Positions 2,382 through 16,939 of a stretch of DNA of 64,000 nt are shown here, piece by piece. How positions within the stretch are numbered: position 1 is the first letter of the stretch; each line of letters opens with the position of its first letter. The stretch spans positions 930,001-994,000 of the forward strand of contig NZ_CP140151.1 in NCBI RefSeq assembly GCF_034479555.1, written 5' to 3'. The stretch comes from Chromohalobacter canadensis. Its GTDB lineage: Bacteria > Pseudomonadota > Gammaproteobacteria > Pseudomonadales > Halomonadaceae. Position numbers and translations under genes: made by a program. The notes below the pieces were generated by a model that was given only the letters and a program-made list of their open reading frames with translations, had not been told where the DNA came from and ran no database searches.

Positions 2382-2394
2382 AATCAGCAGCTTG
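2382..2394 (+). promoter_or_regulatory. Candidate IHF site of the narG promoter
   Basis: AATCAGCAGCTTG matches the IHF consensus WATCAA-N4-TTR with one mismatch and follows an AT-rich stretch (GAATATTCATAT). It ends exactly 16 bp before the NarL inverted repeat. The equivalent IHF-like sites at narK1 and narH have the same 16-bp gap, which supports the call more than the match itself does. Confidence 0.5.
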
Positions 2395-2410
2395 GGTCAT
2401 TACCCCTCAC

Positions 2411-2426
2411 TACCTCCTAAGGAGTA
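2411..2426 (+). promoter_or_regulatory. NarL 7-2-7 inverted repeat at narG
   Basis: TACCTCCTAAGGAGTA is two heptamers facing each other across two bases. On the minus strand TACTCCT fits the NarL heptamer TACYYMT perfectly; TACCTCC on the plus strand misses only the last base. The identical 16-bp word occurs at 13647 in front of narK1. It is centred 52 bp upstream of the FNR box centre. Confidence 0.75.
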
Positions 2427-2463
2427 GCCAGGCTACCCTCGCCATGGCACCCCACCGCGCAAC

Positions 2464-2477
2464 TTGACTGAAATCAA
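2464..2477 (+). promoter_or_regulatory. FNR box of the narG promoter
   Basis: TTGACTGAAATCAA is a near-perfect FNR/ANR palindrome. With a -41.5 class II arrangement, transcription would start near 2512. A -10-like TATGGT is found at 2500-2505, exactly where it should be. The same hexamer lies at the same spacing in the narK1 promoter. Confidence 0.85.
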
Positions 2478-2534
2478 AATCGACCCCGCACGGGCTCCTT
2501 ATGGTGGGTGCAGTTCAAGCATGGGAGGTTCGCC

Positions 2535-2582
2535 ATGGCAAGCCAGCTGGCGCAGCCACACCTCTTGGCCCCGGCGATGTGA
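2535..2582 (+). CDS. Candidate leader ORF upstream of narG (15 codons)
   Basis: GGGAGG at 2523-2528 is a strong ribosome binding site 6 nt before ATG 2535. The ORF encodes MASQLAQPHLLAPAM and ends at TGA 2580-2582, 50 nt before narG. The start is 64.5 bp downstream of the FNR box centre, about 23 nt after the predicted transcription start. The narK1 leader has an ORF at exactly the same offset, also beginning Met-Ala with CCAGC in its first codons. Whether it is translated is not shown; it could be a remnant of promoter duplication. Confidence 0.4.
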   Translation: MASQLAQPHLLAPAM

Positions 2583-2632
2583 CCGAGACGACTCCCTGAC
2601 TCCTGACCGGACTCCATAGAGGGCAAGATACA

Positions 2633-5600
2633 ATGAGCCATTTTCTCGACCGACTGCAGTATCTGGGCAAGCCCCGTGAGGCATTTGCCAATGGCCATGG
2701 CGAGACCCGCGACGAAACCCGCGACTGGGAAGACGGCTATCGCGCTCGCTGGCAGCACGACAAGGTCGTGCGCTCCACCCACGGGGTGAACTGTACCGGC
2801 TCCTGCAGCTGGAAGATCTATGTCAAGAACGGCCTGGTCACCTGGGAAACCCAGCAGACCGACTACCCGCGCACCCGCCCCGACCTGCCCAATCACGAAC
2901 CGCGCGGCTGCCCGCGCGGCGCCAGCTATTCCTGGTACCTCTACAGCGCCAACCGTCTCAAGTACCCGCTGGTGCGCAAGCGCCTGATCAAGCTGTGGCG
3001 CGAGGCGCTGGCCCAGCACGTCGATCCGGTGCTGGCCTGGGCCTCCATCGTCGAGAACCCCGAGAAGACCGCGCAGTACAAGAAGGTTCGCGGCATGGGC
3101 GGCTTCGTAAGGGCCGACTGGGACGAGCTGGAAACCCTGATCGCGGCGTCCAACGTCTACACCGCCAAGCAGTACGGCCCGGACCGCATCATCGGCTTCT
3201 CGCCGATCCCGGCGATGTCGATGGTCTCCTATGCCGCCGGCGCGCGCTACCTGTCGCTGATCGGCGGGGTGTGCCTGTCGTTCTACGACTGGTACTGCGA
3301 TCTGCCGCCGGCCTCGCCGATGACCTGGGGCGAGCAGACCGACGTGCCCGAGTCCGCCGACTGGTACAACTCGAACTACATCATCGCCTGGGGCTCCAAC
3401 GTTCCGCAGACGCGCACCCCCGATGCCCACTTCTTCACCGAGGTGCGCTACAAGGGCACCAAGACCGTCGCCATCACCCCGGACTATGCCGAGGTCGCCA
3501 AGCTGTGCGACGAGTGGCTGAGCCCCAAGCAGGGTACCGACGCGGCACTGGCGATGGCCATGGGCCATGTGATTCTCAAGGAATTCCACCTCGCCAAGCC
3601 CAGCGCCTACTTCACCGACTATGTGCGTCGCTATACCGACATGCCGTTCCTGGTCGAGCTGGAAGCGCGCGAGGACGGCAGCTTCGCCCCCGGCAAGCAG
3701 CTGCGCGCCAGCGACTTCGACGCCAACCTGGGCCAGGACAACAACCCGGATTGGAAGACCGTGGCCTGGGACGCGACCGGCAATCGCCTGGTGGTACCGC
3801 GCGGCTCCATCGGCTTCCGCTGGGGCGAGAAGGAAGGCGGCGAAGGCCGCTGGAACCTCGAGCCGCTCGACGCCGAGGGCAATGAGGTCTCCCTGCAGCT
3901 GTCGCTGGCCGAGAGCCATGACAGCGTCGCCAGGGTCGGCTTCCCCTACTTCGGCGGCATCGCCCACGAACACTTCGATCATGTCGCCGGCAACGACGTG
4001 CTCTATCACAACCTGCCGGCCAAGCGCCTGGCGCTGGCCGACGGTCGCGAGGTGCTGGCGGTGACCGTGTTCGACCTGATGGTTGCCAACTACGGCATCG
4101 ACCGCGGCCTGGGCGCCGAGGGCGAGGACGACGGCGCCACCGCCTACGACCAGGTGCGTCCCTACACCCCCGCCTGGCAGGAGCGGATAACCGGCGTGCC
4201 CGCCGCGCAGTCCATCCGCCTGGCGCGCGAGTTCGCGGACACCGCCGACAAGACCCATGGCCGCAGCATGATCATCGTCGGTGCCGGGATGAACCACTGG
4301 TACCACATGGACATGAACTACCGCGGGCTGATCAACATGCTGATCCTGTGCGGCTGCATCGGCCAGAGCGGCGGCGGCTGGGCGCACTACGTGGGCCAGG
4401 AGAAGCTGCGCCCGCAGACCGGCTGGACCCCGCTGGCCTTCGGCCTCGACTGGCAGCGTCCGCCGCGTCACATGAACGGCACCTCGTTCTTCTACAACCA
4501 CTCCAGCCAGTGGCGCTACGAGAAGCTCGAGATCAGTGAACTGCTCTCGCCCATGGCACGTCGCGAGGACTTCACGGGCAGCCTGATCGACTTCAACGTG
4601 CGTGCCGAGCGCATGGGATGGCTGCCCTCCGCGCCGCAGCTCGACACCAACCCGCTGCAGCTCGCCGAGGCCGCCCGCGTCGCCGGTGTCGATCCGGCCG
4701 ACTATGTGGTCGCCCAGCTCAAGAGCGGCAACCTGCGCTTCGCCGCCGAGGACCCGGACAGCCCGCAGAACTTCCCGCGCAACCTGTTCGTGTGGCGCTC
4801 CAACCTGCTCGGCTCCTCCGGCAAGGGCCACGAGTACATGCTCAAGTACCTGCTGGGTACCAAGCATGGCCTGCAGGGCAAGGATCTGGGCGACACGGAC
4901 GGCACGCTGCCCGAGGAAGTCACCTGGCACGAGGACGCGCCGGAGGGCAAGGTCGACCTGCTGGTGACCCTGGACTTCCGCATGTCCACCACCTGTCTCT
5001 ATTCCGACGTGGTACTGCCGACGGCGACCTGGTACGAGAAGGACGACCTCAACACCTCGGACATGCACCCGTTCATCCACCCGCTGACCGCGGCCACCGA
5101 TCCGGCCTGGGAAGCGCGCAGCGACTGGGACATCTACAAGGGCATCGCCAAGGAGTTCTCCAGGGTCTGCGAGGGTCACCTGGGCCAGGAGACCGACATC
5201 GTCACCCTGCCCATGCAGCACGACTCGCCGGCAGAACTGGCCCAGGCCGAGGTCAAGGACTGGAAGAAAGGCGAATGCGAGCCGATTCCCGGCAAGACCC
5301 TGCCGCACCTGATCGCGGTGCAGCGTGACTATCCGGCGACCTATGAGCGCTTCACCTCGGTCGGCCCGCTGCTCGACACCCTGGGCAACGGCGGCAAGGG
5401 CATCAGCTGGCAGACCCAGCCCGAAGTCGAGCTGCTCGGCAAGCTCAACCAGCGCAAGAGCGAGGGCCCGGCCGAAGGCCGACCCAGGATCGAGACGGCC
5501 ATCGATGCCGCCGAGATGATCCTGACGCTGGCTCCCGAGACCAACGGCAACGTGGCGGTCAAGGCCTGGAATGCGCTGTCGAAGATCACCGGCCGCGAGC

Positions 5601-6400
5601 ACGCCCACCTGGCGCTGCCCAAGCACGAGGAGAAGATCCGCTTTCGCGACATCGTCGCCCAGCCACGCAAGATCATCTCCAGCCCCACCTGGTCGGGGCT
5701 CGAGGACGAGCACGTGTCGTACAACGCGGGTTACACCAATGTCCACGAACTGATTCCGTGGCGCACCGTGACCGGCCGCCAGCAGTTCTATCAGGATCAC
5801 CCCTGGATGCGTGCCTTCGGCGAGAGCCTGCTGGTCTACCGCCCGCCGATCAACACCAAGGCGATGACCGGCATCACGGAGCACAAGAGCAACGGCAACC
5901 CCGAGATCGCGCTGAACTGGATCACCCCGCACCAGAAGTGGGGCATTCACTCCACCTACAGCGACAACCTGCTGATGCTGACGCTGTCGCGCGGTGGCCC
6001 CATCGTCTGGCTGTCCGAAGACGACGCACGCGCCATCGGCGTGGAGGACAACGACTGGATCGAGCTGTACAACGCCAACGGCGCGATCGCCGCCCGGGCG
6101 GTGGTCAGCCAGCGGGTCAAGAACGGCATGGCGATGATGTACCACGCCCAGGAGCGCATCGTGAACGTGCCCGGATCGGAAGTGACCGGCACCCGCGGCG
6201 GCATCCACAACTCGGTGACCCGCGTGTGCCCCAAGCCGACTCACATGATCGGCGGCTACGCCCAGTTGTCCTACAGCTTCAACTACTACGGCACCGTGGG
6301 TTCCAACCGTGACGAATTCGTCATCGTGCGCAAGATGCACCATGTCGACTGGCTGGACGGCGAAGGCAACGACAGCGTGCAGAGTAAAGTGGAAGGCTGA
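2633..6400 (+). CDS. narG: Respiratory nitrate reductase alpha subunit
   Basis: This 1255-residue protein is the catalytic Mo-bisMGD subunit of the membrane-bound cytoplasm-facing nitrate reductase, reducing nitrate to nitrite with electrons from NarH. The N-terminus has the FS0 cluster motif HGVNCTGSCSWK (His plus Cys residues, about 50-61), the hallmark of NarG, followed by GLVTWETQQTDYP. Molybdopterin oxidoreductase domains fill the centre, and the C-terminal dinucleotide-binding domain holds EVTGTRGGIHNSVTRVCPKPTHMIGGY. No Tat signal is present, as expected for NarG. GAGGG lies ahead of ATG 2633. Unusually, narH does not follow: the next gene is hmp, and narHJI lies at 17067-20120. A stem-loop follows the stop codon. 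Confidence 0.97.
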   Translation: MSHFLDRLQYLGKPREAFANGHGETRDETRDWEDGYRARWQHDKVVRSTHGVNCTGSCSWKIYVKNGLVTWETQQTDYPRTRPDLPNHEPRGCPRGASYSWYLYSANRLKYPLVRKRLIKLWREALAQHVDPVLAWASIVENPEKTAQYKKVRGMGGFVRADWDELETLIAASNVYTAKQYGPDRIIGFSPIPAMSMVSYAAGARYLSLIGGVCLSFYDWYCDLPPASPMTWGEQTDVPESADWYNSNYIIAWGSNVPQTRTPDAHFFTEVRYKGTKTVAITPDYAEVAKLCDEWLSPKQGTDAALAMAMGHVILKEFHLAKPSAYFTDYVRRYTDMPFLVELEAREDGSFAPGKQLRASDFDANLGQDNNPDWKTVAWDATGNRLVVPRGSIGFRWGEKEGGEGRWNLEPLDAEGNEVSLQLSLAESHDSVARVGFPYFGGIAHEHFDHVAGNDVLYHNLPAKRLALADGREVLAVTVFDLMVANYGIDRGLGAEGEDDGATAYDQVRPYTPAWQERITGVPAAQSIRLAREFADTADKTHGRSMIIVGAGMNHWYHMDMNYRGLINMLILCGCIGQSGGGWAHYVGQEKLRPQTGWTPLAFGLDWQRPPRHMNGTSFFYNHSSQWRYEKLEISELLSPMARREDFTGSLIDFNVRAERMGWLPSAPQLDTNPLQLAEAARVAGVDPADYVVAQLKSGNLRFAAEDPDSPQNFPRNLFVWRSNLLGSSGKGHEYMLKYLLGTKHGLQGKDLGDTDGTLPEEVTWHEDAPEGKVDLLVTLDFRMSTTCLYSDVVLPTATWYEKDDLNTSDMHPFIHPLTAATDPAWEARSDWDIYKGIAKEFSRVCEGHLGQETDIVTLPMQHDSPAELAQAEVKDWKKGECEPIPGKTLPHLIAVQRDYPATYERFTSVGPLLDTLGNGGKGISWQTQPEVELLGKLNQRKSEGPAEGRPRIETAIDAAEMILTLAPETNGNVAVKAWNALSKITGREHAHLALPKHEEKIRFRDIVAQPRKIISSPTWSGLEDEHVSYNAGYTNVHELIPWRTVTGRQQFYQDHPWMRAFGESLLVYRPPINTKAMTGITEHKSNGNPEIALNWITPHQKWGIHSTYSDNLLMLTLSRGGPIVWLSEDDARAIGVEDNDWIELYNANGAIAARAVVSQRVKNGMAMMYHAQERIVNVPGSEVTGTRGGIHNSVTRVCPKPTHMIGGYAQLSYSFNYYGTVGSNRDEFVIVRKMHHVDWLDGEGNDSVQSKVEG

Positions 6401-6420
6401 AGCTTCCCCGCCCGCCAACG

Positions 6421-6446
6421 AATTGCCCCATGGAAGTGGGGCAATT
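6421..6446 (+). terminator. Stem-loop after narG
   Basis: AATTGCCCC and GGGGCAATT form a 9-bp perfect stem around an 8-base loop, 20 nt after the narG stop. The tail (CCGTTCG) has no real U-run, so it may be a weak terminator or an RNA 3'-end stabiliser. It separates narG from hmp and supports narG being monocistronic. Confidence 0.55.
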
Positions 6447-6601
6447 CCGTTCGCCACGGTTTACCACCCGAGCGTGATGCCGACGTAAGCGCACCGCTTG
6501 ACAGCAACGGTCATTTCAACTGCCTTCGTCCAATAAAACGAACCATCAGCCTGGCCGGCCGATGATCGCCAGGCGCCCGGAAGCTTGAGAGGAATTACCC
6601 T

Positions 6602-7786
6602 ATGTTGACAGCTGAACAGGAACGCATCATCGATGCCACGGCCCCGGTCGTGGCGGAACACCTCGACACCATCACCCGGCGATTCTATCCGCTGATGTTC
6701 GAGCGTTACCCGGAGGTAGCGCCCTTCTTCAATCAGACTCACCAGGCGGATGGCGGGCAGCCCAGGGCCCTCGCCAGCTCCGTGCTGGCCTACGTGCAAC
6801 TGCGCAAGGAGCCCGAGAAGGTCAGGACGGCACTGGCCACGGTGGTCAGCAAGCATGTGTCGCTGGGAATACAGCCCGATCAATATCCCATCGTCGGCGA
6901 GTGCCTGATGGTCGCCATAGGGGAAGTCCTGGGCGATGCGGTCACGCCCGAGGTGGCGGATGCCTGGGGCGCCCTTTACCAGGAACTGGCGACACTGCTG
7001 ATCGAGCTGGAGGACGCCAGCTACCGGGAATTCGCCGAGCGCCCCGGCGGTTGGCGCGGCACCCGGCGCTTTAGTATTGCCGAGACCCGCCAGGAAAGCG
7101 CGGTGATTCGCTCGTTCGTGCTGAAACCGGTCGATGGCGGATCGGTCGCCGATTACCAGCCCGGGCAATTCATCGGCCTGAAGCTGTCCATCGATGGCGA
7201 AACGGTTCATCGCCACTACAGCCTGTCCGGCATTCCCAACGGGGAAAGCTATCGTCTCTCGATAAAGCGCGAACCCGGCGGCAAAGTCAGCCAGCATTTC
7301 CACGACACGCTGGATGTCGGCGACGAGCTGGAACTTCTTCAGCCATCGGGACAGCTGATCCTCGACGAGACCACCTCCCCGGTGATGCTGATCAGCGGCG
7401 GTGTCGGCCAGACCCCCATGTTGCCCATGGCGTGCCGCGCGCTCGAGCAGGGGCGCCAGGTCGTTTATGTGCATGCCGCCCAGGAGCGCGAACAGCATGC
7501 CTTCGCCGATGAACTGGATGCCCTGGCCAAGAAGGACTACCCCGGCACATTGACATCGGTGACCCTCTACGAACGGGGTGAAGGGGACGGCCGGGCCGAC
7601 CACATCGGCCGCGTCAACCGCGAGTTGCTGGAGCGCCACCTGCCCGACGGCTCACCCGAATGCTATTTCGTCGGTCCACAGGGCTTCATGACCGCGGTCG
7701 ACGAGGCGCTGCAAGAGCTCGGCGTGCCCGCCGAGCGGCGTCACTACGAGCACTTCGGGCCGTCACGCCCGCTTCATGCGGCTTGA
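6602..7786 (+). CDS. hmp: Flavohaemoglobin (nitric oxide dioxygenase)
   Basis: This 394-residue protein has the full flavohaemoglobin layout. The globin domain (about 1-140) starts MLTAEQERIIDATAPVV and has the proximal haem His in VSKHVSLGI. The FAD domain (about 150-255) shows the HRHYSLSG motif, and the NAD-binding domain carries GGVGQTPMLPM and ends YEHFGPSRPL. It converts NO plus oxygen to nitrate and removes NO made during nitrite reduction, which suits its place after narG. The untranslated gap to narG holds a stem-loop, and TTGACA at 6498 could be a -35 element, so it probably has its own promoter. No clear NsrR site was recognised. Confidence 0.95.
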   Translation: MLTAEQERIIDATAPVVAEHLDTITRRFYPLMFERYPEVAPFFNQTHQADGGQPRALASSVLAYVQLRKEPEKVRTALATVVSKHVSLGIQPDQYPIVGECLMVAIGEVLGDAVTPEVADAWGALYQELATLLIELEDASYREFAERPGGWRGTRRFSIAETRQESAVIRSFVLKPVDGGSVADYQPGQFIGLKLSIDGETVHRHYSLSGIPNGESYRLSIKREPGGKVSQHFHDTLDVGDELELLQPSGQLILDETTSPVMLISGGVGQTPMLPMACRALEQGRQVVYVHAAQEREQHAFADELDALAKKDYPGTLTSVTLYERGEGDGRADHIGRVNRELLERHLPDGSPECYFVGPQGFMTAVDEALQELGVPAERRHYEHFGPSRPLHAA

Positions 7787-7835
7787 GCCACCCTCCCCTC
7801 GCCGGCCATCGACACACGGCCGCCGATCCTGATGC

Positions 7836-7866
7836 AAAAGCCAGTCGCCACGGCGACTGGCTTTTT
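7836..7866. terminator. Bidirectional rho-independent terminator (hmp / antiporter)
   Basis: AAAAGCCAGTCGCC and GGCGACTGGCTTTT form a 14-bp stem with a 2-base centre, flanked by A4 on the left and T5 on the right. It lies between the convergent hmp and antiporter genes and can terminate both. Confidence 0.9.
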
Positions 7867-7871
7867 CATGT

Positions 7872-9491
7872 CTACTGAAGCGCAGCCTCTTCGTAATCCA
7901 GTTCGCGAATCAGGGTCTGCAGCATCTGTTCATCGATATGCCGCCGCTTGCGCAATCGATATAACTCCCGGCGCTGGGCCTGAATGGCTCGGATGCGCAA
8001 ATCCGTTTCCAGTTGGTGAAGCTGACGCGCCTGGTCGGCCCGATCGTCACGATCCATCGCCATCGCCTGCATTTCCTGACGATAGGAATCGATGATCCGG
8101 GCCGTCACCGAGCCTTTCGGTTCGAGTTCGTCGCTCGATTGTGCCTTTGACCACTCTTCCAGCCAGTCGACGGCGGCCTGGGAGGCGCTCCGCCGCGCCT
8201 TCAGCAACTCGCGTTCGTGCTCCTCGAGGTCGTTCAGCGACAGGAATCTCAAAAAGTAGGGAATGCCCAGCGCGCCGATCAGCAACGACAGGATAATCAC
8301 CGCGGCCGCCAGAAAGATCATCAGGTCGCGCCCGGGAAAAGACACGCCATTGATGAACAACGGCACCGAAAGCACGCCGGCGAGGGTAATCGCCCCACGC
8401 ACGCCGGCCACCGAGCTGAGGGTGGTGATCAACAGCAGCGGCTGGTTCTCTCCGCCCTTGGCTCGCGGCTTGAACAGGCGGGTCTCGATCCAGTGATAGG
8501 CATAGATGAAGGCAAAGCGGATCGCCAGCAGCAGCGCCATGAGCACGACGGCGTAGAGCACCAGCGTACCCATCGCGTAGCTCTGCGTGGCGGAATCCGC
8601 CCACACACGCTCGACGATGCCGGGGAACTGCAACCCGAGCAGCAGGAACACCACGCCGTTGAAGGTGAAGTCGAGCATTTCCCAGATGCTGCGATTGAGG
8701 ATGCGGGTGCTGGTCTTCACCGGCAGCATGTCGACACGACTCTGCACCATGCCCGCGGCCACCGCCGAGAGAATACCCGACATGCCGGCATGTTCGGCGA
8801 GGTAGAACGCCGCGAACGGCAGCAGCAGGATCGTGACCACGTAGGTGGCCGGATCGTAGAGGTTGCGTGCGGTCATCCACTGCTTGATCTTGCCGACCGT
8901 CCAGCTCAGCGTGCCGCCGATCAGTAGACCGCCCAGCGCGACCATCAGGAACTCGCCGGACACGGAGAGCAACGAGAAGCCGCCGGTCATGGCGGCCGCG
9001 ATGGCGATCTTGAACGAGACCAGCCCCGTGGCGTCGTTCATCATCGCCTCGCCTTCCAGCTGGTGCGACATATGGCGCGGCAGGCGCCCCTGGGCAATGG
9101 CGATCACCGACAGCGCATCGGTGGGCGACAGGATGGCGGCTAGCGCGAAGCTGGCCGCCAGCGGAATCGAAGGCAACAGCCAGTGGATGAAGTAACCGAC
9201 CGCCACCACAGTGACCAGTACCAGCAGCAGCGACATGGCGGCAATCTGTCCACCGTGCTCGGTGAATTCCTTCTTGGGAATCTTCCAGCCGTCGTAGAAC
9301 AGCAACGGTGGAATGAACAGCATCATGAAGATTTCCGGGTCCAGCTCGACTTCCATCCCGAAAAGCGGTGAAGCCAGCAGGCAGCCCATCAGGATCTGCA
9401 AGATGGGCAGGGGCAAGGGGATGATGTTGGCCAGTATTCGACTGATGCCGACGGCCAGGGTAAGCAGAAAAACGAGGTTGAGTATGTCCAT
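7872..9491 (-). CDS. CPA1-family Na+/H+ antiporter (YjcE-like)
   Basis: About 539 residues. It aligns with E. coli YjcE: MDILNLVFLLTLAV, then LQILMGCLLASPLFGMEVELDPEIFMMLFIPPLLFYDGWK, AALAAILSPTDALSV and GEAMMNDATGLVSFK, the conserved ion-path motifs of CPA1 exchangers. About 12 membrane helices are followed by a roughly 130-residue charged cytoplasmic tail with coiled-coil character (DLEEHERELLKARR; LHQLETDLRIRAIQAQRRELYRLRKRRH). It exports Na+ for H+ across the inner membrane, useful in a halophile. The ATG at 9491 is preferred because it matches the YjcE start; TTG/GTG codons at 9536/9533 extend the frame. No obvious Shine-Dalgarno precedes 9491. Confidence 0.9.
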   Translation of the reverse strand: MDILNLVFLLTLAVGISRILANIIPLPLPILQILMGCLLASPLFGMEVELDPEIFMMLFIPPLLFYDGWKIPKKEFTEHGGQIAAMSLLLVLVTVVAVGYFIHWLLPSIPLAASFALAAILSPTDALSVIAIAQGRLPRHMSHQLEGEAMMNDATGLVSFKIAIAAAMTGGFSLLSVSGEFLMVALGGLLIGGTLSWTVGKIKQWMTARNLYDPATYVVTILLLPFAAFYLAEHAGMSGILSAVAAGMVQSRVDMLPVKTSTRILNRSIWEMLDFTFNGVVFLLLGLQFPGIVERVWADSATQSYAMGTLVLYAVVLMALLLAIRFAFIYAYHWIETRLFKPRAKGGENQPLLLITTLSSVAGVRGAITLAGVLSVPLFINGVSFPGRDLMIFLAAAVIILSLLIGALGIPYFLRFLSLNDLEEHERELLKARRSASQAAVDWLEEWSKAQSSDELEPKGSVTARIIDSYRQEMQAMAMDRDDRADQARQLHQLETDLRIRAIQAQRRELYRLRKRRHIDEQMLQTLIRELDYEEAALQ

Positions 9492-9716: not shown

Positions 9717-9730
9717 TTGATTGAAGTCAT
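9717..9730 (+). promoter_or_regulatory. FNR-like box upstream of the CMD-family gene
   Basis: TTGATTGAAGTCAT has a perfect left half-site and a degenerate right one (GTCAT instead of ATCAA). It lies 128 nt before the ATG at 9852, which would leave a leader of roughly 85 nt if it acts from -41.5. Weaker than the other boxes in the window. Confidence 0.4.
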
Positions 9731-9851
9731 CAAGGCCATGAGCCGGACCGGTCAATGTGGGCCTGTTTCGCGTGTCGAACGGTAAACGCTATGCTGTAGG
9801 CGCGAACCATGCGACTAGCCACTATTCAGGAAACGACCGGGAGCCTACACC

Positions 9852-10172: not shown

Positions 10173-10258
10173 CCAGGCGATTCATGCGCGCCCCTGGCCG
10201 CAATGAAAGCCGCCGGGGCGTGCCAAGAGGTTGCGCGTGCCGCCCGTCGGGCCGCCGG

Positions 10259-10272
10259 TTGACTCGAGTCAA
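10259..10272 (+). promoter_or_regulatory. Perfectly palindromic FNR box upstream of a small unknown gene
   Basis: TTGACTCGAGTCAA is a perfect 14-bp palindrome fitting TTGA-N6-TCAA. Its centre is 106.5 nt before ATG 10372, so a class II promoter would start near 10307 with a leader of about 65 nt. CACAGT at 10295-10300 is at the -10 position but is a poor hexamer. Confidence 0.7.
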
Positions 10273-10371
10273 TCCCTCATCTTCCTGAAAGCCGCACAGT
10301 GCCCGCCAGAATGCTGCTTCGAGCACTTTCACGGTGCGCTGCCAGCCCCAAATTCTCTCGAGGAAAGCTAC

Positions 10372-10776
10372 ATGGCCATCGCCAACTACGCCGAGCTTCT
10401 CAGCGAAGCGCACCGCCAGCCCGAGCCCCAGCGCCTGCTGTTCGTCTTCGCCAGGGCCGAACTGCCCGACAATCCCGACACGCAGCAGCAAGAACGCTTC
10501 GAACAGGGCGAAGGCGGCGTGCTGACACCGGCCCTGTGCGTCGACAAGACACTGGATGAACTGAGCGACATGGAATCACTGGTCGTGGAATCCCAACGCA
10601 CCGGGGTGACCTGGGATATCGTCTTCGTCGCCGCCCTGGCCGGCGATGGAACGAACCCGCCGACCAGCGAAGAGGCCGAACGTCCCCTTCAGCGCATGGT
10701 CGAGGCCCTGCAGATGGGCAGCATCGATAACTTCCTGGCGTTCGACCGCCAGGGCGATAGCGTCGATATTCAGTAG
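10372..10776 (+). CDS. Conserved small protein of unknown function
   Basis: 134 residues, acidic and soluble, with no signal peptide or membrane helix. It begins MAIANYAELLSEAHRQPEPQRLLFVFARAELP and continues with an acidic stretch and a VTWDIVFVAALAG segment. Relatives of about this size occur in pseudomonads and other gammaproteobacteria, and I recall some carry the name 'ribonucleotide reductase subunit alpha'; nothing here (no Cys pair, no nucleotide site) supports that name. The ATG at 10372 has GAGGAAAG seven bases upstream, far better than the longer frame starting at 10231, which would place the FNR box inside the gene. The palindromic FNR box makes it a candidate anaerobically induced protein. 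Confidence 0.7.
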   Translation: MAIANYAELLSEAHRQPEPQRLLFVFARAELPDNPDTQQQERFEQGEGGVLTPALCVDKTLDELSDMESLVVESQRTGVTWDIVFVAALAGDGTNPPTSEEAERPLQRMVEALQMGSIDNFLAFDRQGDSVDIQ

Positions 10777-10834
10777 GCCGACAGCGATCCACGCGGGATA
10801 CTGTCATTTCATCAATCCATGCAACGGGGGCCCT

Positions 10835-11050
10835 ATGGCCAAGCGTTTCAAGGTCGGCGATCACGTCCGCTGGAACTCGGAAGCGGGCCATGTCAGCGGA
10901 CGGATCATCCGCGTTCACACCCGCGATACCGAATACAAGGGGCACCGGCGCCGCGCCAGCGAGGACGAACCGCAGTACGAGATCCAGAGCGACAAGACCG
11001 ATCACATCGCCATGCACAAGGACTCGGCACTGAGCAAGATCGACGAGTAG
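10835..11050 (+). CDS. DUF2945/HVA1-family Tudor-like small protein
   Basis: 71 residues: MAKRFKVGDHVRWNSEAGHVSGRIIRVHT and then EDEPQYEIQSDKTDHIAMHKDSALSKI. This is the DUF2945 (hypervirulence-associated Tudor domain) pattern: GDHVxWNSEAGxVxGxI, then YEIQSDKTDHIAxHKxxAL. The function of the family is unknown; the fold suggests nucleic acid or protein binding. The start is set by GGGGG seven bases upstream and by conservation; a longer frame begins at 10646 inside the previous gene. It ends 6 nt before the convergent narL stop. Confidence 0.85.
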   Translation: MAKRFKVGDHVRWNSEAGHVSGRIIRVHTRDTEYKGHRRRASEDEPQYEIQSDKTDHIAMHKDSALSKIDE

Positions 11051-11056
11051 CGGTTC

Positions 11057-11698
11057 TTACGAGACCCCATGATTGACCGCCCACACCGCCGCCTCCACCC
11101 GCGAACGCAGGCCGAGTTTCTTGAGCAGGTTCTTGACGTGAACCTTCACCGTGCCCTCGGTGATATCGAGCCGCCGCGCGATCATCTTGTTGCTCATGCC
11201 GCGGGCCAGTGTCCGCAGGATATCCAGTTCGCGCGAGGTGAGCGACGACAACGCATCGACGGGTGCGGCGCGGCCGCCGCTGACGATGCCCGCCAGGATG
11301 GCGGCGAGCTGCGGACTGATCACCAGCTTGCCCTCGGCGGCCTCCTTGATACGCGCCAGCAGGTCCTCGGGCTCCATGTCCTTGAGAAGGTAACCGTCGG
11401 CACCGGCGCGCAGCGCGGCGACCACATCGTCGTCGGCATCGGACACCGTGAGCATCACGAGGCGCGTATCGACGCCGTTGCTGCGAATCTGACGCAGGGC
11501 CTCCAGCCCGTCCATCCTGGCCATGTTCAGATCCATCAGGATCAGGTCAAGCTCGAGCGTGCCGGCGGCCTCGACGGCTTCGGCGCCGTTGGATGCCTCG
11601 CCGGCGATGGTCATGTCCGGATCCATCTCGACCAGCTGGCGCACGCCGCGCCGGAACAGCGGATGGTCGTCGACGATCAGGATGCGTGTTTCGCTCAT
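11057..11698 (-). CDS. narL: Nitrate/nitrite response regulator NarL
   Basis: 213 residues. The receiver domain (about 5-125) has the phospho-acceptor Asp in LILMDLNM with the acidic pair IVDDHP at the N-terminus and the conserved Lys in GYLLKDMEPEDLL. The C-terminal LuxR-type helix-turn-helix (about 145-210) reads LTSRELDILRTLARGMSNKMIARRLDITEGTVKVHVKNLLKKLGLRSR, as in E. coli NarL. It is phosphorylated by NarX and binds TACYYMT heptamers, present as 7-2-7 repeats before narG, narK1 and narH. Its ATG overlaps the narX stop (ATGA), so the two are translationally coupled. Confidence 0.96.
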   Translation of the reverse strand: MSETRILIVDDHPLFRRGVRQLVEMDPDMTIAGEASNGAEAVEAAGTLELDLILMDLNMARMDGLEALRQIRSNGVDTRLVMLTVSDADDDVVAALRAGADGYLLKDMEPEDLLARIKEAAEGKLVISPQLAAILAGIVSGGRAAPVDALSSLTSRELDILRTLARGMSNKMIARRLDITEGTVKVHVKNLLKKLGLRSRVEAAVWAVNHGVS

Positions 11699-13530
11699 TG
11701 AGTCCCTCCCAGCAGATTGACCGATTCGCTCCCGGCGGTGACCTGCGGGATAAAACGCAGTACCACTTCCGTTCCGCCCTCGGCGCGATTGTGCATTTCG
11801 AGCGCGCCGCCCAGGCCGGTGGCACGCTCGTCCATGATCGTGGTGCCATAGTGGTTGAGCCGCGCGTGCTGCTCGGGCAAGCCCACCCCGTCGTCGCGGA
11901 TAGACACCCTGACCTGCCCCGAGTCGGTAGTCTGCAAGTGAATATCGCAGTTTTCGGCCCTGGCGTGATGAACCACGTTGGAGAGCGCCTCGCGCACGAT
12001 CTGCAGCACATGAATCTCCTCGTTGGGGGTCAGCGGACAGTGCCGCAGCTCGTATTCGAGCAGGATTTTCAGCTCAGTGCGCTGGGCGAATTCACGCACC
12101 GTCTCGTTGAGCGCGGCCTCGAGCCCCGGCTCGGTCATCTTCAGGCGGAAGGTGTTGAGCAGCTCGCGCAGCTGTCGGTAGGCCGAGTTCAGTCCCTCGC
12201 GCAGTTCGTCGATGACCGCATCCTGATCGGCTGACGAACTCTGCTGACGAATCAGCATCTGCAGGCGCGCCACCTGGATCTTCAGATACGAGAGCGACTG
12301 GGCCAACGAGTCGTGCAGCTCCCGGGCGATCACCGCACGTTCGTCCATCAACGCCAGGCGACGCTGCTCGTCATTGTTCTGAGCCAGCGAGAGCGCCGTG
12401 GCGATCAGCCCCGCCACGGTCTCGACCAGATCCATCTGCCAGCGCAGCGGAGAGGCCCCCGCCGGGTGCTGAATCAACAGCACGCCATAGCGGCGGTCGG
12501 ACTCGCTGACCACCACCGGGCGTACCCGCGGCGGCACCCGCTCGCCACTCAGGCAGGGGCCGCAATCCGGCGCCCGGCAGAAATCGGGGCGATCGCCCAG
12601 TTGGGTGGAAATACGCTGATAGGCACGTTCGGCCTCGCCCTGCGACAGGCACAGGGTGATCGGGCCGAGTCCCGTGACCCGTTCCAGGTGATCGAGCACA
12701 TCGCAGAAATCCTCGCTGCCGGGGGTCGAGCTGTTGAGCTGCCGTGCGGCCTCGTAGAGCAGCCGCAACGACTCGTTGCTGCGCTTGAGTTCGGCCGTCT
12801 TGGCTTCCACCCGCTGCTCGAGTTCCGCATACATCCGCGACAGGCTTTCGTTCATCTGATTGAGGGTGCGCGAGATCAGACCCAGTTCATCGTTGCCCTC
12901 ATAAGCCACACGCCCCGTGAAGTCGCCGTGACGCACCCGATTGACCACGTGGAACAGCTCGCGCAGCGGCGGCATCACATCATTGACCAGCTTGTACATG
13001 GTCCCCAGCACCAGGATCAGGGTCAGGAACAGAACGATGCCCTGAAGCAGATGCAGCATCCGGATCCGCGACTCGGCGCCCTGCTGCAACTGGCCGACCA
13101 GGCGATCCACCTCGCCGACGAACTCGGCGGTCTGGCCAATCAGAGCCCGAGATGGACGTGACTCGGCGGCCAGCAGGGCCGGGCGCAGCATGTCCTGCCA
13201 CATCTCGGTCACGCCGACGTAGCGCTGGGTCAGAGGATGCTGCGGACCGTCGGGAATCAATCCGGTGATGACCGGGCTGGTCAGGTCGGCATCGAAGTGC
13301 TCGATCCGCTGGCGCAGCACCTCGTCATCCACCGGGGCCTGCAGGCGCGTACTCAGCAAGCGGTAGGCCTGCATGCGCAGAGTACCGGCCTGGTTGATGG
13401 CCGCGGCATCGCCACTGGCGGTCTCGGCGATCATGATCGACCCGAGCATGCTGGTCAGGGCGAGCACGACGATCCCCGCCATGGCGAGGCCGGCCCGGAA
13501 GATCAGCGAACGGGTAAGGGATTGGGACAT
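11695..13530 (-). CDS. narX: Nitrate/nitrite sensor histidine kinase NarX
   Basis: 611 residues. A first membrane helix (about 10-35) is followed by the nitrate-binding P-box SGDAAAINQAGTLRMQAYRL, nearly identical to E. coli NarX. The periplasmic four-helix domain ends at a second membrane helix (about residues 165-185), then HAMP (LRELFHVVNRVRHGDFTGRV), a coiled signalling helix, a central module with a cysteine cluster (FCRAPDCGPC), and a HisKA_3 kinase core. The H-box is MDERAVIARELHDSLAQSLSYLK and the ATPase domain has DDGVGLPEQ. It senses nitrate and nitrite in the periplasm and phosphorylates NarL. The ATG at 13530 is preferred over one eight codons upstream because it fits the family start. 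Divergent from narK1. Confidence 0.95.
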   Translation of the reverse strand: MSQSLTRSLIFRAGLAMAGIVVLALTSMLGSIMIAETASGDAAAINQAGTLRMQAYRLLSTRLQAPVDDEVLRQRIEHFDADLTSPVITGLIPDGPQHPLTQRYVGVTEMWQDMLRPALLAAESRPSRALIGQTAEFVGEVDRLVGQLQQGAESRIRMLHLLQGIVLFLTLILVLGTMYKLVNDVMPPLRELFHVVNRVRHGDFTGRVAYEGNDELGLISRTLNQMNESLSRMYAELEQRVEAKTAELKRSNESLRLLYEAARQLNSSTPGSEDFCDVLDHLERVTGLGPITLCLSQGEAERAYQRISTQLGDRPDFCRAPDCGPCLSGERVPPRVRPVVVSESDRRYGVLLIQHPAGASPLRWQMDLVETVAGLIATALSLAQNNDEQRRLALMDERAVIARELHDSLAQSLSYLKIQVARLQMLIRQQSSSADQDAVIDELREGLNSAYRQLRELLNTFRLKMTEPGLEAALNETVREFAQRTELKILLEYELRHCPLTPNEEIHVLQIVREALSNVVHHARAENCDIHLQTTDSGQVRVSIRDDGVGLPEQHARLNHYGTTIMDERATGLGGALEMHNRAEGGTEVVLRFIPQVTAGSESVNLLGGTQ

Positions 13531-13617
13531 GCGCGCTCCGAACAGGACTACCACCTATGCCTCGCTGCCGCTAAAGCGACCCCCGAGGCAGTCCCGAGTC
13601 ACAAAAAGAATTTTATA

Positions 13618-13630
13618 AAACAAGGGGTTG
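13618..13630 (+). promoter_or_regulatory. Candidate IHF site of the narK1 promoter
   Basis: AAACAAGGGGTTG fits WATCAA-N4-TTR with one mismatch and is preceded by an A/T tract (AAAAAGAATTTTATAA), as strong IHF sites often are. It ends 16 bp before the NarL repeat. IHF is known to bend the narK1 upstream DNA in Pseudomonas aeruginosa. Confidence 0.55.
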
Positions 13631-13646
13631 CCAGGACCCCCTCGCC

Positions 13647-13662
13647 TACCTCCTAAGGAGTA
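13647..13662 (+). promoter_or_regulatory. NarL 7-2-7 inverted repeat at narK1
   Basis: TACCTCCTAAGGAGTA, identical to the site at 2411 in front of narG. Centre-to-centre distance to the FNR box is 52 bp, also identical to narG. It could also act on the divergent narX promoter. Confidence 0.78.
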
Positions 13663-13699
13663 GCCTCGCTAGCCTACTCCGTTCGCCACGCCAGCGCCC

Positions 13700-13713
13700 T
13701 TGATTCGAGTCAA
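13700..13713 (+). promoter_or_regulatory. FNR box of the narK1 promoter
   Basis: TTGATTCGAGTCAA is a near-perfect FNR palindrome. TATGGT at 13736-13741 is the -10 element at the expected spacing, predicting a start near 13748. Arrangement and hexamer are the same as in the narG promoter. Confidence 0.87.
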
Positions 13714-13770
13714 TAACGGTCGCGCGCGCCATGCCTATGGTTGCCTCAGGTTCCACCGGGAGGGTCCGCC

Positions 13771-13848
13771 ATGGCAAACCAGCCAATCATCCGTGCTCAC
13801 CCTGACTCCCGCTCGATCATTTCACTCGTGACAGGAAAGCCATCATGA
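13771..13848 (+). CDS. Candidate leader ORF overlapping the narK1 start (25 codons)
   Basis: GGGAGGG at 13759-13765 precedes ATG 13771. The 25-codon ORF begins MANQPIIRAHPDS and stops at TGA 13846-13848, so its stop overlaps the narK1 ATG (13845-13847) as ATGA. Such an overlap usually means translational coupling. Its start is 64.5 bp from the FNR box centre, exactly as in the narG leader, and the surrounding bases (GGGAGG-T-CGCCATGGCAA-CCAGC) are shared. narK1 itself has only GGAAAG close upstream. No experimental evidence of translation. Confidence 0.5.
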   Translation: MANQPIIRAHPDSRSIISLVTGKPS

Positions 13849-15197
13849 AGAACCTGGAAGGCGTAACGAGGCCCGATCAGTACCGGGCACTGACGCTGAG
13901 CACCCTGGCGTTCACCGTGTGCTTTGCGGTATGGACGATTTTTTCGATTATCGGCGTGAGGATCAAGCAGGATCTGGGCCTCAGCGAGACGGAGTTCGGC
14001 ATCCTGGTCGCGACCCCTGTGCTGACCGGCTCCATCAGCCGGATCTTCCTCGGCATCTGGACCGAACAGCTCGGTGGCCGTCGGGTATTCAGCATCCTCA
14101 TGCTCGTGACCTCGGTGTGCGTATTCCTGCTCTCCTACGTGGAGACCTACTGGATGTTCCTGATCGCCGCCCTCGGTGTGGGTCTGGCGGGCGGATCGTT
14201 CATCGTGGGGATTGCCTACACCTCCTACTGGTTCGAGGAAGAGCGCCAAGGCACCGCGCTGGGAATCTTCGGCGCCGGCAACGTGGGCGCGGCGGTCACC
14301 AATTTCGGCGCCCCGTTCTTGCTGATCGCCCTCGGCTGGGAACGCACTGCGGTGATCTACGCCGTGGTTCTGGCGATCATGGCGGTGGTGTTCTGGGTGT
14401 TCGCCCAGGAAGACCCGATGACGATGGCCCGTCGCCGCGCCGGCACCCGTGGCACCTCCGCGCTTACCCAACTCGAGCCTTTGCGTCATCCCCAGGTATG
14501 GCGCTTCGCGCTCTACTACTTCTTCGTGTTTGGCGGCTTCGTCGCCCTCGCCTCCTACCTGCCACGCTACTACGTCGGCGCCTACGATGTGAGCATCGCG
14601 GTCGCCGGCACTCTCACGGCACTGTATTCGCTGCCGGCAAGCGTGTTCCGGGCCTTTGGCGGCTACCTCTCCGACCGTTTCGGTGCCCGCGCGGTCATGT
14701 ATCTGACCTTCATCGTCTCGCTGGTATGCCTGTTCCTGCTCGCCTACCCGGAGACTCGATACGCCGTTCAGGGCAAGGAAGGCTTGATCGAGTTCAGCTT
14801 GGCGATGCCGCTATGGGGCGTGGTAGTGCTGACGGTGCTGCTCGGTTTCTTCATGTCCCTGGGCAAGGCGGCCGTCTACAAGCACATCCCCGTCTACTAC
14901 CCGAATAACGTCGGCTCCGTCGGCGGCCTGGTGGGCATGATCGGCGGCCTGGGCGGCTTTTTCCTGCCCATCACCTTTGGAATCGTGCTCGACCTCACCG
15001 GCGTCTGGACCACCTCTTACATGGTGATGTTCGTGCTCGTTGCCGTTTCCCTGGTCTGGATGCACGTGGCGATCCGACGCATGGAGCGCCGGCACATCCC
15101 CGAGCTCTCGGAGGAGCGCTACCGGTACCTGCCGGAAGTTCAGGACTCGACGGACGGAAACCGCCGCAAGACCGGGGAGACGGATGCCCGACCCTAA
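13845..15197 (+). CDS. narK1: Nitrate transporter, NarK1 type (MFS)
   Basis: 450 residues with about 12 membrane helices. It has the NarK/NasA nitrate signature regions: TGSISRIFLGIWTEQLGGRR between helices 2 and 3, and GAGNVGAAVTNFGAPFL in helix 5, with a second glycine-rich motif NNVGSVGGLVGMIGGLGGFFLP in helix 11. The motif arginine lies in the first region. In related bacteria NarK1 is the proton-coupled nitrate symporter and NarK2 the nitrate/nitrite exchanger. The start is taken at 13845, where it overlaps the leader ORF stop. narK2 follows after 68 nt without an obvious terminator. Confidence 0.93.
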   Translation: MKNLEGVTRPDQYRALTLSTLAFTVCFAVWTIFSIIGVRIKQDLGLSETEFGILVATPVLTGSISRIFLGIWTEQLGGRRVFSILMLVTSVCVFLLSYVETYWMFLIAALGVGLAGGSFIVGIAYTSYWFEEERQGTALGIFGAGNVGAAVTNFGAPFLLIALGWERTAVIYAVVLAIMAVVFWVFAQEDPMTMARRRAGTRGTSALTQLEPLRHPQVWRFALYYFFVFGGFVALASYLPRYYVGAYDVSIAVAGTLTALYSLPASVFRAFGGYLSDRFGARAVMYLTFIVSLVCLFLLAYPETRYAVQGKEGLIEFSLAMPLWGVVVLTVLLGFFMSLGKAAVYKHIPVYYPNNVGSVGGLVGMIGGLGGFFLPITFGIVLDLTGVWTTSYMVMFVLVAVSLVWMHVAIRRMERRHIPELSEERYRYLPEVQDSTDGNRRKTGETDARP

Positions 15198-15265
15198 CCA
15201 CGAAAACGGTGCAACCGGGGCGCCGGGCCCCGGTCGCCACAAGCAACCATCAGGAGATAACGAGC

Positions 15266-16663
15266 ATGTCCATGGACAACACGTTACACAAAGGTGAGCA
15301 CCCGCGGGTGCTCACCGACTGGCGCCCCGAGGATACCGACTCCTGGGAGAGCGTCGGCAAGGCCATCGCCACCCGCAACCTGTGGATCTCCATTTTCTGT
15401 CTGCTGCTGGCCTTCTGCGTATGGATGGTCTGGTCGGTGGTGGTCGCCAAGCTGCCCCAGGTGGGTTTCGACTATACCTCCAACCAGTTGTTCTGGCTGG
15501 CCGCGCTGCCGGGCCTGTCAGGTGCCACGCTGCGCATCTTCTACAGCTTCATGGTGCCGATCGTCGGCGGCCGACGCTTTACCGCGCTTTCGACCGCTTC
15601 GCTGGCCCTGCCGGCGCTGTGGATCGGCTTTGCGGTGCAAAACCCGGATACCCCCTATCTGGTGATGCTGATCGTGGCACTGCTGTGCGGCTTCGGCGGC
15701 GGCAACTTCGCCTCCAGCATGGCCAACATCTCGTTTTTCTACCCCAAGCGCGAGAAAGGCAATGCCCTGGCGCTCAATGCCGGCCTGGGCAACCTGGGGG
15801 TCAGCGTCATGCAGTTCGTGGTGCCGCTGGTGATCACCGCCGGGGTCTTCGGGGCGCTGGGCGGCGAGCCGCAGATGCTGGGGGATAGCCAGCGCCTGTG
15901 GTTGCAGAACGCCGGCTTCATCTGGGTGCCGTTCATCCTGCTCGGCGCCGCGGCCGCCTGGTTCGGCATGAACGACATCGCCAGCGCGCGCTCCTCGTTC
16001 AAGGATCAGTCGGTCATCTTCAAGCGCAAGCACAACTGGCTGATGTGCATGCTCTATACCGGCACATTCGGCAGTTTCATCGGCTATTCCGCCGGCTTTC
16101 CGCTGCTGGCATCCAATCAGTTCCCCGAGGTCGACGTACTCAAGTTCGCCTTCTTGGGGCCGCTGGTGGGGGCGCTGTCGCGTGCCGGCACCGGCTGGGT
16201 CTCGGACCGCTTCGGCGGTGCCCGGGTCACGCTGTGGGTGTTCGCGGGGATGATCATTTGTGTCGCCGGGGTACTGTTCTTCCTCGGCATCAAGGACCAG
16301 CCGGGCGCGTTCTGGGGCTTCTTCGCCATGTTCCTGCTGCTGTTCTTCTTTACCGGAGTAGGCAACGCCAGCACCTTCCAGATGATTCCCGAGATCTTCC
16401 GCCAGGAGGTGGCGCGCCTGATGCCGAACCTCGATAGCGCGGCACAACGTCAGCAGGGCGACAAGGAATCCGCGGCAACCATCGGCTTTACCTCGGCGAT
16501 CGCCGCCTACGGTGCCTTCTTCATTCCCAAGACCTTCGGCAGCTCCATCGCATTGACCGGCGGTGCGGAATCGGCACTCTACGGCTTCATCGTCTTCTAT
16601 GCGCTGTGCATGGGCCTGACCTGGTTCTATTACACTCGCAGGAATGCCGAGACACCCTGCTGA
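15266..16663 (+). CDS. narK2: Nitrate/nitrite antiporter, NarK2 type (MFS)
   Basis: 465 residues, about 12 membrane helices. The hydrophilic N-terminal stretch (LTDWRPEDTDSWESVGKAIATRNLW) is characteristic of NarK2/NarK proteins, followed by helix 1. The nitrate signature is NAGLGNLGVSVMQFVVPLVI, and SGATLRIFYSFMVPIVGGRR holds the conserved substrate arginine. The C-terminal half has RAGTGWVSDRFGGARVT. It imports nitrate in exchange for nitrite, keeping nitrite from accumulating during respiration. ATG 15266 follows AGGAG nine bases upstream; a longer frame from 15209 is not needed. A strong terminator follows. Confidence 0.94.
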   Translation: MSMDNTLHKGEHPRVLTDWRPEDTDSWESVGKAIATRNLWISIFCLLLAFCVWMVWSVVVAKLPQVGFDYTSNQLFWLAALPGLSGATLRIFYSFMVPIVGGRRFTALSTASLALPALWIGFAVQNPDTPYLVMLIVALLCGFGGGNFASSMANISFFYPKREKGNALALNAGLGNLGVSVMQFVVPLVITAGVFGALGGEPQMLGDSQRLWLQNAGFIWVPFILLGAAAAWFGMNDIASARSSFKDQSVIFKRKHNWLMCMLYTGTFGSFIGYSAGFPLLASNQFPEVDVLKFAFLGPLVGALSRAGTGWVSDRFGGARVTLWVFAGMIICVAGVLFFLGIKDQPGAFWGFFAMFLLLFFFTGVGNASTFQMIPEIFRQEVARLMPNLDSAAQRQQGDKESAATIGFTSAIAAYGAFFIPKTFGSSIALTGGAESALYGFIVFYALCMGLTWFYYTRRNAETPC

Positions 16664-16688
16664 TACCGCCCTGATCGCACGACTGGAA

Positions 16689-16714
16689 AGAGAGCCGGCT
16701 ATTGCCGGCTCTCT
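16689..16714 (+). terminator. Terminator after narK1-narK2
   Basis: AGAGAGCCGGC and GCCGGCTCTCT form an 11-bp stem with a TATT loop, followed by TCATTGTT. It closes the narK1K2 transcript and shows that narHJI needs its own promoter. Confidence 0.85.
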
Positions 16715-16779
16715 TCATTGTTGCCCGTCGTAGGTCTTCCGGCGCCCCTACCCCCAAAGAGCCTGCCTCTTTTCGCGGC

Positions 16780-16795
16780 TACCTCCTAAGGCATA
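16780..16795 (+). promoter_or_regulatory. Distal NarL-like repeat upstream of narH
   Basis: TACCTCCTAAGGCATA keeps the left heptamer and spacer of the narG/narK1 NarL site exactly but has a degenerate right arm (GGCATA instead of GGAGTA). It lies on the far side of the IHF-like site. It may be a second NarL contact or a decayed copy. Confidence 0.45.
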
Positions 16796-16818
16796 ATCCG
16801 AGCAAAAAAAATATTTTA

Positions 16819-16831
16819 AAACAATTGCTTG
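16819..16831 (+). promoter_or_regulatory. Candidate IHF site of the narH promoter
   Basis: AAACAATTGCTTG fits WATCAA-N4-TTR with one mismatch, preceded by an A/T tract (AAAAAAAATATTTT). It ends 16 bp before the proximal NarL repeat, the same gap as in the narG and narK1 promoters. Confidence 0.55.
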
Positions 16832-16847
16832 CCAACGCCGACGCGAC

Positions 16848-16863
16848 TACCCCCAAGGGAGTA
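16848..16863 (+). promoter_or_regulatory. NarL 7-2-7 inverted repeat at narH
   Basis: TACCCCCAAGGGAGTA is a 7-2-7 repeat related to the narG and narK1 sites. Its centre is 51 bp before the FNR box centre, against 52 bp at the other two promoters. Confidence 0.65.
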
Positions 16864-16899
16864 CACGACGCCTCGGCACCGGGCGGTGGGCCCGGCGAC

Positions 16900-16913
16900 T
16901 TGATTCGAGTCAA
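16900..16913 (+). promoter_or_regulatory. FNR box of the narHJI promoter
   Basis: TTGATTCGAGTCAA, the same 14 bases as the narK1 FNR box. A start near 16948 is predicted; the bases at the -10 position (about 16936-16941) are a poor hexamer, unlike narG and narK1. The leader to narH would be about 120 nt. Confidence 0.8.
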
Positions 16914-16939
16914 AAACCTCCCTCACCGAAAGGACCAAA

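Follow-up and report, generated by a model that had tools for sequence, protein, structure and literature searches.

How do the parts of one enzyme stay under common control once their genes no longer lie together? The nar operons are a standard example of gene clustering that lets the parts of an enzyme be made jointly. In a 64-kb stretch of the Chromohalobacter canadensis genome (positions 930,001 to 994,000 of contig NZ_CP140151.1, hereafter the window), the catalytic subunit gene narG lies ~10.7 kb from narH, and the three pieces narG, narK1K2 and narHJI are each preceded by a predicted promoter with sites for NarL, FNR and integration host factor (IHF), as a previous, sequence-only reading of this DNA had noted. 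That reading took the promoters for copies of one duplicated control cassette that keeps the split operon in step. We find that the promoters belong to a known type and that the split operon which they serve is unusual; one suspected duplication, linking narK1 to narG, is real, and the other, at narH, is unsupported. It is the split of the operon, and not the promoter layout, that is the unusual feature of the locus.

Three promoters of one layout

The binding sites at the three promoters, all on the plus strand, occur in the same order, where IHF-like matches were scored against the IHF consensus WATCAANNNNTTR and NarL 7-2-7 repeats against TACYYMTNNAKRRGTA. Upstream of narG, an IHF-like core (2382..2394, AATCAGCAGCTTG), a NarL 7-2-7 repeat (2411..2426, TACCTCCTAAGGAGTA) and an FNR box (2464..2477, TTGACTGAAATCAA), each with one mismatch, are followed by TATGGT (2500..2505) as the predicted -10 element. 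The narK1 promoter comprises an IHF-like core (13618..13630, AAACAAGGGGTTG), a NarL repeat (13647..13662) with the same letters as that of narG and an FNR box (13700..13713, TTGATTCGAGTCAA), again with one mismatch each, and TATGGT as the predicted -10 (13736..13741). At narH, the IHF-like core (16819..16831, AAACAATTGCTTG, one mismatch), the NarL repeat (16848..16863, TACCCCCAAGGGAGTA, two mismatches) and an FNR box identical to that of narK1 (16900..16913, one mismatch) precede a weak predicted -10, CAAAGT (16936..16941). The IHF-NarL gaps are 16, 16 and 16 bp and the NarL-FNR gaps 37, 37 and 36 bp for narG, narK1 and narH, respectively, and the predicted -10 lies 32 bp 3' of the FNR centre in all three, a spacing at which the FNR box would be centred at -41.5. 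All nine sites, their gaps, the two shared sequences and the pair of TATGGT elements agree with the sequence-only reading, every position having been re-read and matched.

Pairs of a NarL repeat (up to two mismatches) and an FNR box (up to one) with a centre distance of 36-68 bp occur three times in the window, each with an IHF-like core 10-20 bp upstream, and 200 dinucleotide shuffles gave none. In the 3,595,165-base genome, the pattern TACYNCYNNRGGRGTA-N20..50-TTGAYYNNNRTCAA has three matches, exactly at these promoters, and the reversed-pattern control none. Because the pattern was composed with the sites already known, this indicates uniqueness rather than blind discovery.

Several observations weigh against these promoter assignments. 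Each predicted IHF site carries one mismatch to the consensus, so that the single IHF calls are weak, and the narH -10 is itself weak; CAAAGT is also found at the narH promoter of four aligned relatives and of genomes G146, G138 and G118. In addition, a sigma-70 consensus scan of 2100-20300 listed no plus-strand promoter at the narG, narK1 or narH sites; its sole match in the scanned region, against 3.0 expected from shuffles, lies on the minus strand (16835-16808) across the narH IHF-like site. Activator-dependent promoters are often missed by scans of this kind.

For the IHF position, the relatives are informative. We compared eight genomes in which narG is apart from narH, namely G000, G001, G003 and G005 (group g1) and G027, G118, G138 and G146 (group g19), the window included. 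In ten promoters of relatives (narK1 of G146, G138, G118 and G003; narH of G027, G146, G138 and G003; narG of G146 and G138), the 13-mer located exactly 16 bp 5' of NarL has a mean of 2.1 mismatches, compared with 6.0 for gaps of 0-70 bp (standard deviation of gap means 0.9). Left out were the window, G001 and G005, together with narK1 and narG of G027 (almost identical to the window), as well as narG of G003 and G118 and narH of G118, which have no NarL site at the standard place. The two poorest rows are G118 narK1, with five mismatches at gap 16 and a core of its own at gap 14, and G146 narG, with three. The IHF-like position of narH is kept in relatives with one or two mismatches, and a weaker NarL-like repeat upstream of it (16780..16795, plus strand, three mismatches) is present in seven of the eight genomes (in G005 from the alignment), with no match in G118.

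All three promoters thus have predicted NarL heptamer sites upstream of an FNR box and a putative IHF site upstream of NarL, as in nar promoters of the E. coli/P. aeruginosa type. The regulators are encoded in the genome, where Fnr, NarL, IhfA and IhfB score above their model cut-offs; NarXL and FNR are encoded within the window.

The layout itself is not new and recurs at nar promoters across Gammaproteobacteria. In a survey of both strands of 80 narH loci, the relatives and the window, we found 60 NarL-FNR pairs at the same mismatch limits, with a centre distance of 50-53 bp in 47 (window and near-copies included) and of exactly 52 bp in 35. Excluding the window and loci L142-L147, 35 distinct pairs remain at 50-53 bp, of which 12 have an IHF-like core with up to one mismatch 14-17 bp upstream in the same orientation, where ~0.05 would be expected from a background of 0.00039 per position. 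In the opposite orientation, eight cores lie no further than 60 bp away; the gap is 15 in one of them and 27-29 in five. Rows with the layout include Pseudomonas, Neptuniibacter, Pectobacterium, Citrobacter, Kosakonia and Pseudoalteromonas. Since other Gammaproteobacteria share it, equal spacing and site order alone are not proof of duplication.

Origin of the narG and narH promoters

Alignment of the narG promoter with that of narK1 extends over 151 bp at 71%, and that of the narK1 and narH promoters over 61 bp at 74%, sites included. Of 137 anchored non-site positions, 69 match between narG and narK1 (42 in shuffles, standard deviation 5; 0/5000 as high), 55 between narK1 and narH (0.8% of shuffles as high) and 51 between narG and narH (2.9%). 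By comparison, the window promoters share a mean of 37 and a maximum of 47 of these positions with promoters of other genera (51 comparisons), and the narK1-narH matches amount to 38 in G003 and 46 in G027. When all binding sites are masked and the promoters aligned locally against shuffles, narG-narK1 similarity persists, with z values of 12.1 in the window, 8.3 in G146 and 8.5 in G138. The masked narK1-narH comparison gives z 3.4 in the window (12/1000 shuffles as high) and no signal in G146, G138 or G003 (z -1.2, -0.8 and -1.0), and masked narG-narH comparison gives none in the window, G146 or G138 (z 0.1, 1.0 and -1.1), such that six of the seven masked comparisons with narH are at chance.

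On this sequence evidence, narG has a copied narK1 promoter, and the copied segment would include a narK1-type start codon. A leader open reading frame (ORF) before narG (2535..2582, plus strand, MASQLAQPHLLAPAM) resembles, in its Shine-Dalgarno sequence and opening codons (MASQ), the start of the narK1-type genes of G146 and G138, where the Shine-Dalgarno sequence is followed by ATGGCAAGC or ATGGCCAGC. A second leader ORF, of 25 codons, precedes narK1 (13771..13848, plus strand), its stop overlapping the narK1 start (ATGA); the matching ATG opens a full narK1-type gene, beginning MASQ, in G146 (438 codons) and G138 (429 codons). We therefore read the narK1 leader as the putative vestigial start of an earlier narK1, and that of narG as a probable vestige of the narK1 start carried along with the promoter copy. 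The narK1 gene varies inside the group, that of the window being 48% identical to that of G146 or G138. The simplest reading is that narG took over the promoter and opening codons of narK1 at a time when narK1 had not yet been replaced in the window lineage.

We also considered the short ORFs before the narG, narK1 and narH units as regulatory leader peptides and rejected this. The narH leader frame is broken by 2- and 1-bp indels between relatives, the narG leader frame is shifted by 1 bp in G001, G003 and G005, and most differences between the narK1 leaders of the window and G001 alter the amino acid, as judged by eye. Vestiges are the better reading, because in G146 and G138 the ATG of the narK1 leader is the start of a full gene.

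The widespread occurrence of the layout, including pairs of promoters in one genome that are dissimilar outside the sites (39-46/137 non-site matches in L030, L033, L064 and L067), is what would be expected if no copying had taken place and each gene had evolved the standard nar layout independently. We regard this as highly improbable for the locus as a whole, given the 69/137 non-site matches between narG and narK1, reached by none of 5000 shuffles, and their common start-codon vestige; as far as these comparisons reach, the account is refuted for narG-narK1 and stands for narH.

The opposite account, in which one cassette was duplicated twice and narG, narK1 and narH all carry copies, would explain the identical FNR boxes of narK1 and narH, the nearly equal gaps, the 61-bp alignment, the anchored matches of narH and the weak masked narK1-narH similarity of the window. 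It appears quite unlikely, however, in view of the missing masked narK1-narH signal in G146, G138 and G003, the missing narG-narH signal in three of three genomes and the occurrence of the same spacing in other genera. The narH promoter is thus not demonstrably a copy and has the look of a separate origin, and no trace of the narK1 first codons is seen there, although the narK1-narH similarity confined to the window leaves room for a partial exchange and to that extent counts against a wholly separate origin. The duplicated control cassette of the sequence-only reading therefore holds for narG and narK1, whose masked alignment in the window, G146 and G138 exceeds shuffles by 8-12 standard deviations, and is not supported for narH as a third copy, whose masked similarity to narK1 is absent in three of four genomes and weak in the window. 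We likewise rejected the idea that the three cassettes evolve in concert, as orthologous promoters are more alike (87-133/137) than the promoters within the window (51-69).

Conservation of the sites among relatives

Across the eight split g1/g19 genomes, the FNR box is the sole site kept at all three promoters in 8/8, with two mismatches at narG and narK1 of G138. At narK1, the NarL 7-2-7 repeat is found in all eight, at standard spacing in seven and at 62 bp in G118. At narH it is found at standard spacing in seven (with three mismatches in G027), and no match of up to three mismatches was found in the 420 bp searched in G118. At narG, NarL is located 50-52 bp from FNR in only four (G000, G027, G146 and G138); in G001, G003, G005 and G118 the spacing is off-standard, with a NarL-like repeat 60 bp from FNR, which speaks against a uniform arrangement. 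We read this short form of the narG promoter as a probable deletion and, because G118 falls outside the rest on the narG tree, it would either have originated on two occasions or have been passed on by recombination. We considered and rejected a recent insertion of the narG cassette into the window: G146 and G138 carry diverged versions of it, and the segment matches narK1.

The strict NarL-FNR pattern is found in 7 of 151 genomes of the family, all of the g1/g19 group, and its 17 matches are, judged by coordinate, all upstream of narG, narK1 or narH. In Kushneria, NarL lies 40-41 bp from FNR at the narH promoters of six genomes (three NarL mismatches in G117 and G133), and at the six narK1 promoters the distance between a 7-2-7 repeat and FNR is 118-119 bp. 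The NarL-FNR centre distances of 40-41, 50-53, 62, 72 and 93-94 bp appear to lie near whole DNA turns from 52, whereas those of 59, 60 and 64 bp do not. The relatives thereby supply natural promoter-spacing variants for NarL-FNR-IHF cooperation.

The proposal that the cassette keeps the split operon in step has partial support and is weakened by this variation. It agrees with the FNR box at three promoters in all eight genomes, but not with the standard narG NarL spacing in only half of them, the 62-bp spacing at G118 narK1 or the G118 narH promoter without a NarL match. Likewise, the suggested comparison with other Halomonadaceae nar promoters bears out conservation of FNR and reveals variable NarL spacing at narG.

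Separation of narG from narHJI

For narG and for narH, 151 genomes of the family were surveyed, the match lists being read by eye. narG is above cut-off in 74 genomes, and narH is above cut-off in all 74 of these. The two genes are adjacent in 60 (narH of G022 and narG of G100 each being in two pieces) and apart in 14, comprising the eight g1/g19 genomes and six Kushneria genomes (G068, G081, G091, G110, G117 and G133). In Kushneria, where narG comes after narK2 with narHJ apart, the narG-narH distance is 1-18 kb in five genomes (1.1 kb in G117) and the genes are on different contigs in G133. The g1/g19 genomes have narK1K2 next to narH, and their narG neighbours fnr. A further genome, G017 (L159, 7955-8623 and 14478), has narH with a NarL/FNR promoter but, of narG, only a C-terminal fragment next to a narL-like one; a complete narG was not found in this genome.

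The simplest reading of the narG/narHJI separation is one ancient event. In the narH tree, the 13 split rows (identical rows dropped, G017 included) fall in one clade (97/93), and one change suffices in 98% of the 200 bootstrap trees. For narG, the tree was built by a quick method with the Shimodaira-Hasegawa-like approximate likelihood ratio test (SH-aLRT) as its only support measure; 13 of its 14 split rows form one clade (SH-aLRT 95). This tree, without bootstrap, requires two changes, which stands against a single origin. The exception is G001 (L142, narG at locus 2645-6421), a mosaic gene that is near-identical to that of G003 for the first ~500 bp and then 66-94% per 200-bp block. The narH tree thus points to a single origin of the split, the second change of the narG tree being attributable to the mosaic gene. 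The mosaic itself points to recombination within the gene.

Exchange is also suggested by G027 (L145), which is assigned to another genus. Its identity to the window is 98-100% in 250-bp blocks across fnr-narG and 76% at the narH promoter block, a pattern suggestive of recent transfer and patchwork exchange. A possible remnant of the narG 3' end before narH scores such that at most 4% of 300 shuffles are as high in all six non-Kushneria rows (the window, G027, G146, G138, G003 and G017), and 14% and 60% are as high in the two Kushneria rows, neither of which has a signal; we consider the remnant suggestive only and make no use of it in our conclusions. No precedent for the split was seen by title or abstract in the literature searched, most subscription papers being outside its reach. 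A catalytic subunit gene that left its operon yet kept or regained matching control would show that an operon can break without loss of coordination.

Proposed regulation and history

Very probably, the locus has three ordinary class II FNR promoters, one per operon piece, each with an upstream site for phosphorylated NarL (NarL-P) and an IHF bend, the narG promoter having been copied from narK1 and that of narH not. We infer the action of the three proteins by analogy with E. coli narG and P. aeruginosa narK1. In the absence of oxygen, FNR at -41.5 would contact the polymerase; with nitrate, NarX would phosphorylate NarL, and NarL-P at approximately -93 would raise activity, aided by IHF bending the DNA ~30 bp further upstream. 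The narG, narK1K2 and narHJI units would then rise together, placing NarG, NarHJI and the transporters under the same signals without a common messenger RNA. The coordination of NarG with NarHJI would rest on common regulators, with the FNR box constant and the NarL site variable among relatives.

Two terminator-like 12-bp hairpins with weak T tails are present on the plus strand, one after narG (6420..6447, -21.1 kcal/mol, z -3.2) and one between narK2 and narH (16688..16715, -24.5 kcal/mol, z -5.6); the consensus scan of 2100-20300 listed neither. Without a good T tail, read-through from narK2 into narH could occur, which is a point against separate control of narHJI. We consider it unlikely that narHJI is expressed mainly by read-through from narK1K2, with its own sites minor. 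The hairpin without a T run and the weak narH -10 would be in keeping with this, as would G118, where just ~230 bp separates narK2 from narH and the FNR box of narH comes without a NarL match. On the other hand, the strong narK2-narH hairpin is kept, by eye, in four aligned relatives, the narH NarL site is present in seven of eight genomes, and the Kushneria narH genes, in five cases at a distance from narG and in the sixth on another contig, still have their own NarL/FNR sites.

With three separate promoters as the preferred reading, narG would have parted from narHJI in what was most likely a single event, in a common ancestor with Kushneria. narHJI would have its own FNR promoter, with a NarL site predicted in all split genomes examined but G118. 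Later, in the Chromohalobacter-like group, narG would have come to lie next to fnr, accompanied by a copied narK1 promoter and narK1-type start codon, the narH promoter having the same predicted layout without detectable copying. We tentatively put forward, as somewhat short of an even chance, that the operon broke once and stayed broken through several genera since its pieces gained the same two-signal control in different ways, narG by promoter copying and narH by independent build-up of IHF-16-NarL-37-FNR. If this is true, the spacings of 40, 51, 52, 60 and 62 bp in relatives represent a natural test of how strict the geometry is, 40 and 62 being about one DNA turn from 52.

Gene setting

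The gene for fnr/anr (1385..2131, minus strand; NCBIfam Fnr NF008365, 253 bits against a cut-off of 228), with N-terminal CHNC...C cysteines visible, is divergent from narG (2633..6400, plus strand; TIGR01580, 2301 bits). narG is followed by hmp, encoding a nitric oxide-detoxifying flavohemoprotein (6602..7786). An hmp gene after narG is seen in the window, G027 and G118, and only fragments of hmp in G001, G003 and G005 (L142-L144). A Na+/H+ antiporter gene (minus strand) lies between hmp and narL. narL (11057..11698; NarL NF007935, 304 bits against a cut-off of 250) and narX (11695..13530) are both on the minus strand and divergent from narK1; narX scores 462 bits, under its model cut-off of 578, and is named by best match and position. 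On the plus strand follow narK1 (13845..15197) and narK2 (15209..16663), with 219 and 338 bits in NarK family TIGR00886, respectively under and above the cut-off of 311.7, and narH (17067..18695; TIGR01660, 1024 bits), with narJ and narI (Pfam PF02613 and PF02665) 3' of it in the narHJI unit (17067..20120). Genes for PPIC-type and MoeA-type proteins are located 3' of narI.

Comparison with known nar systems

The loci of Neptuniibacter, Marinobacterium and Pectobacterium resemble the window in having two promoters per locus with 52-bp NarL-FNR spacing. They are distinct in that the flanks of the paired promoters are dissimilar and so give no sign of recent copying and, for Neptuniibacter and Marinobacterium, in that narG adjoins narH. 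In P. aeruginosa, the gene order is narK1K2GHJI, with a single promoter for the whole operon. This contrasts with the three promoters of the window, for narG, narK1K2 and narHJI.

The P. aeruginosa narK1 promoter is similarly located between narXL and narK1 and, as summarized in the part of a review available to us (PMC12491237, citing Schreiber 2007), uses Anr, Dnr, NarXL and IHF. For a Marinobacter nar promoter, the accessible part of PMC6152468 likewise describes a predicted NarL heptamer and FNR site. At E. coli narG, the accessible part of PMC4549865 describes NarL, FNR and IHF as all required for full expression, and places the NarL regions at -89 and -195 with no 7-2-7 site. The window thus shares with the E. 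coli narGHJI promoter the combination of FNR, NarL and IHF, predicted here by sequence, and differs from it, as described in that part of PMC4549865, in having one clear 7-2-7 repeat at approximately -93 and a split operon.

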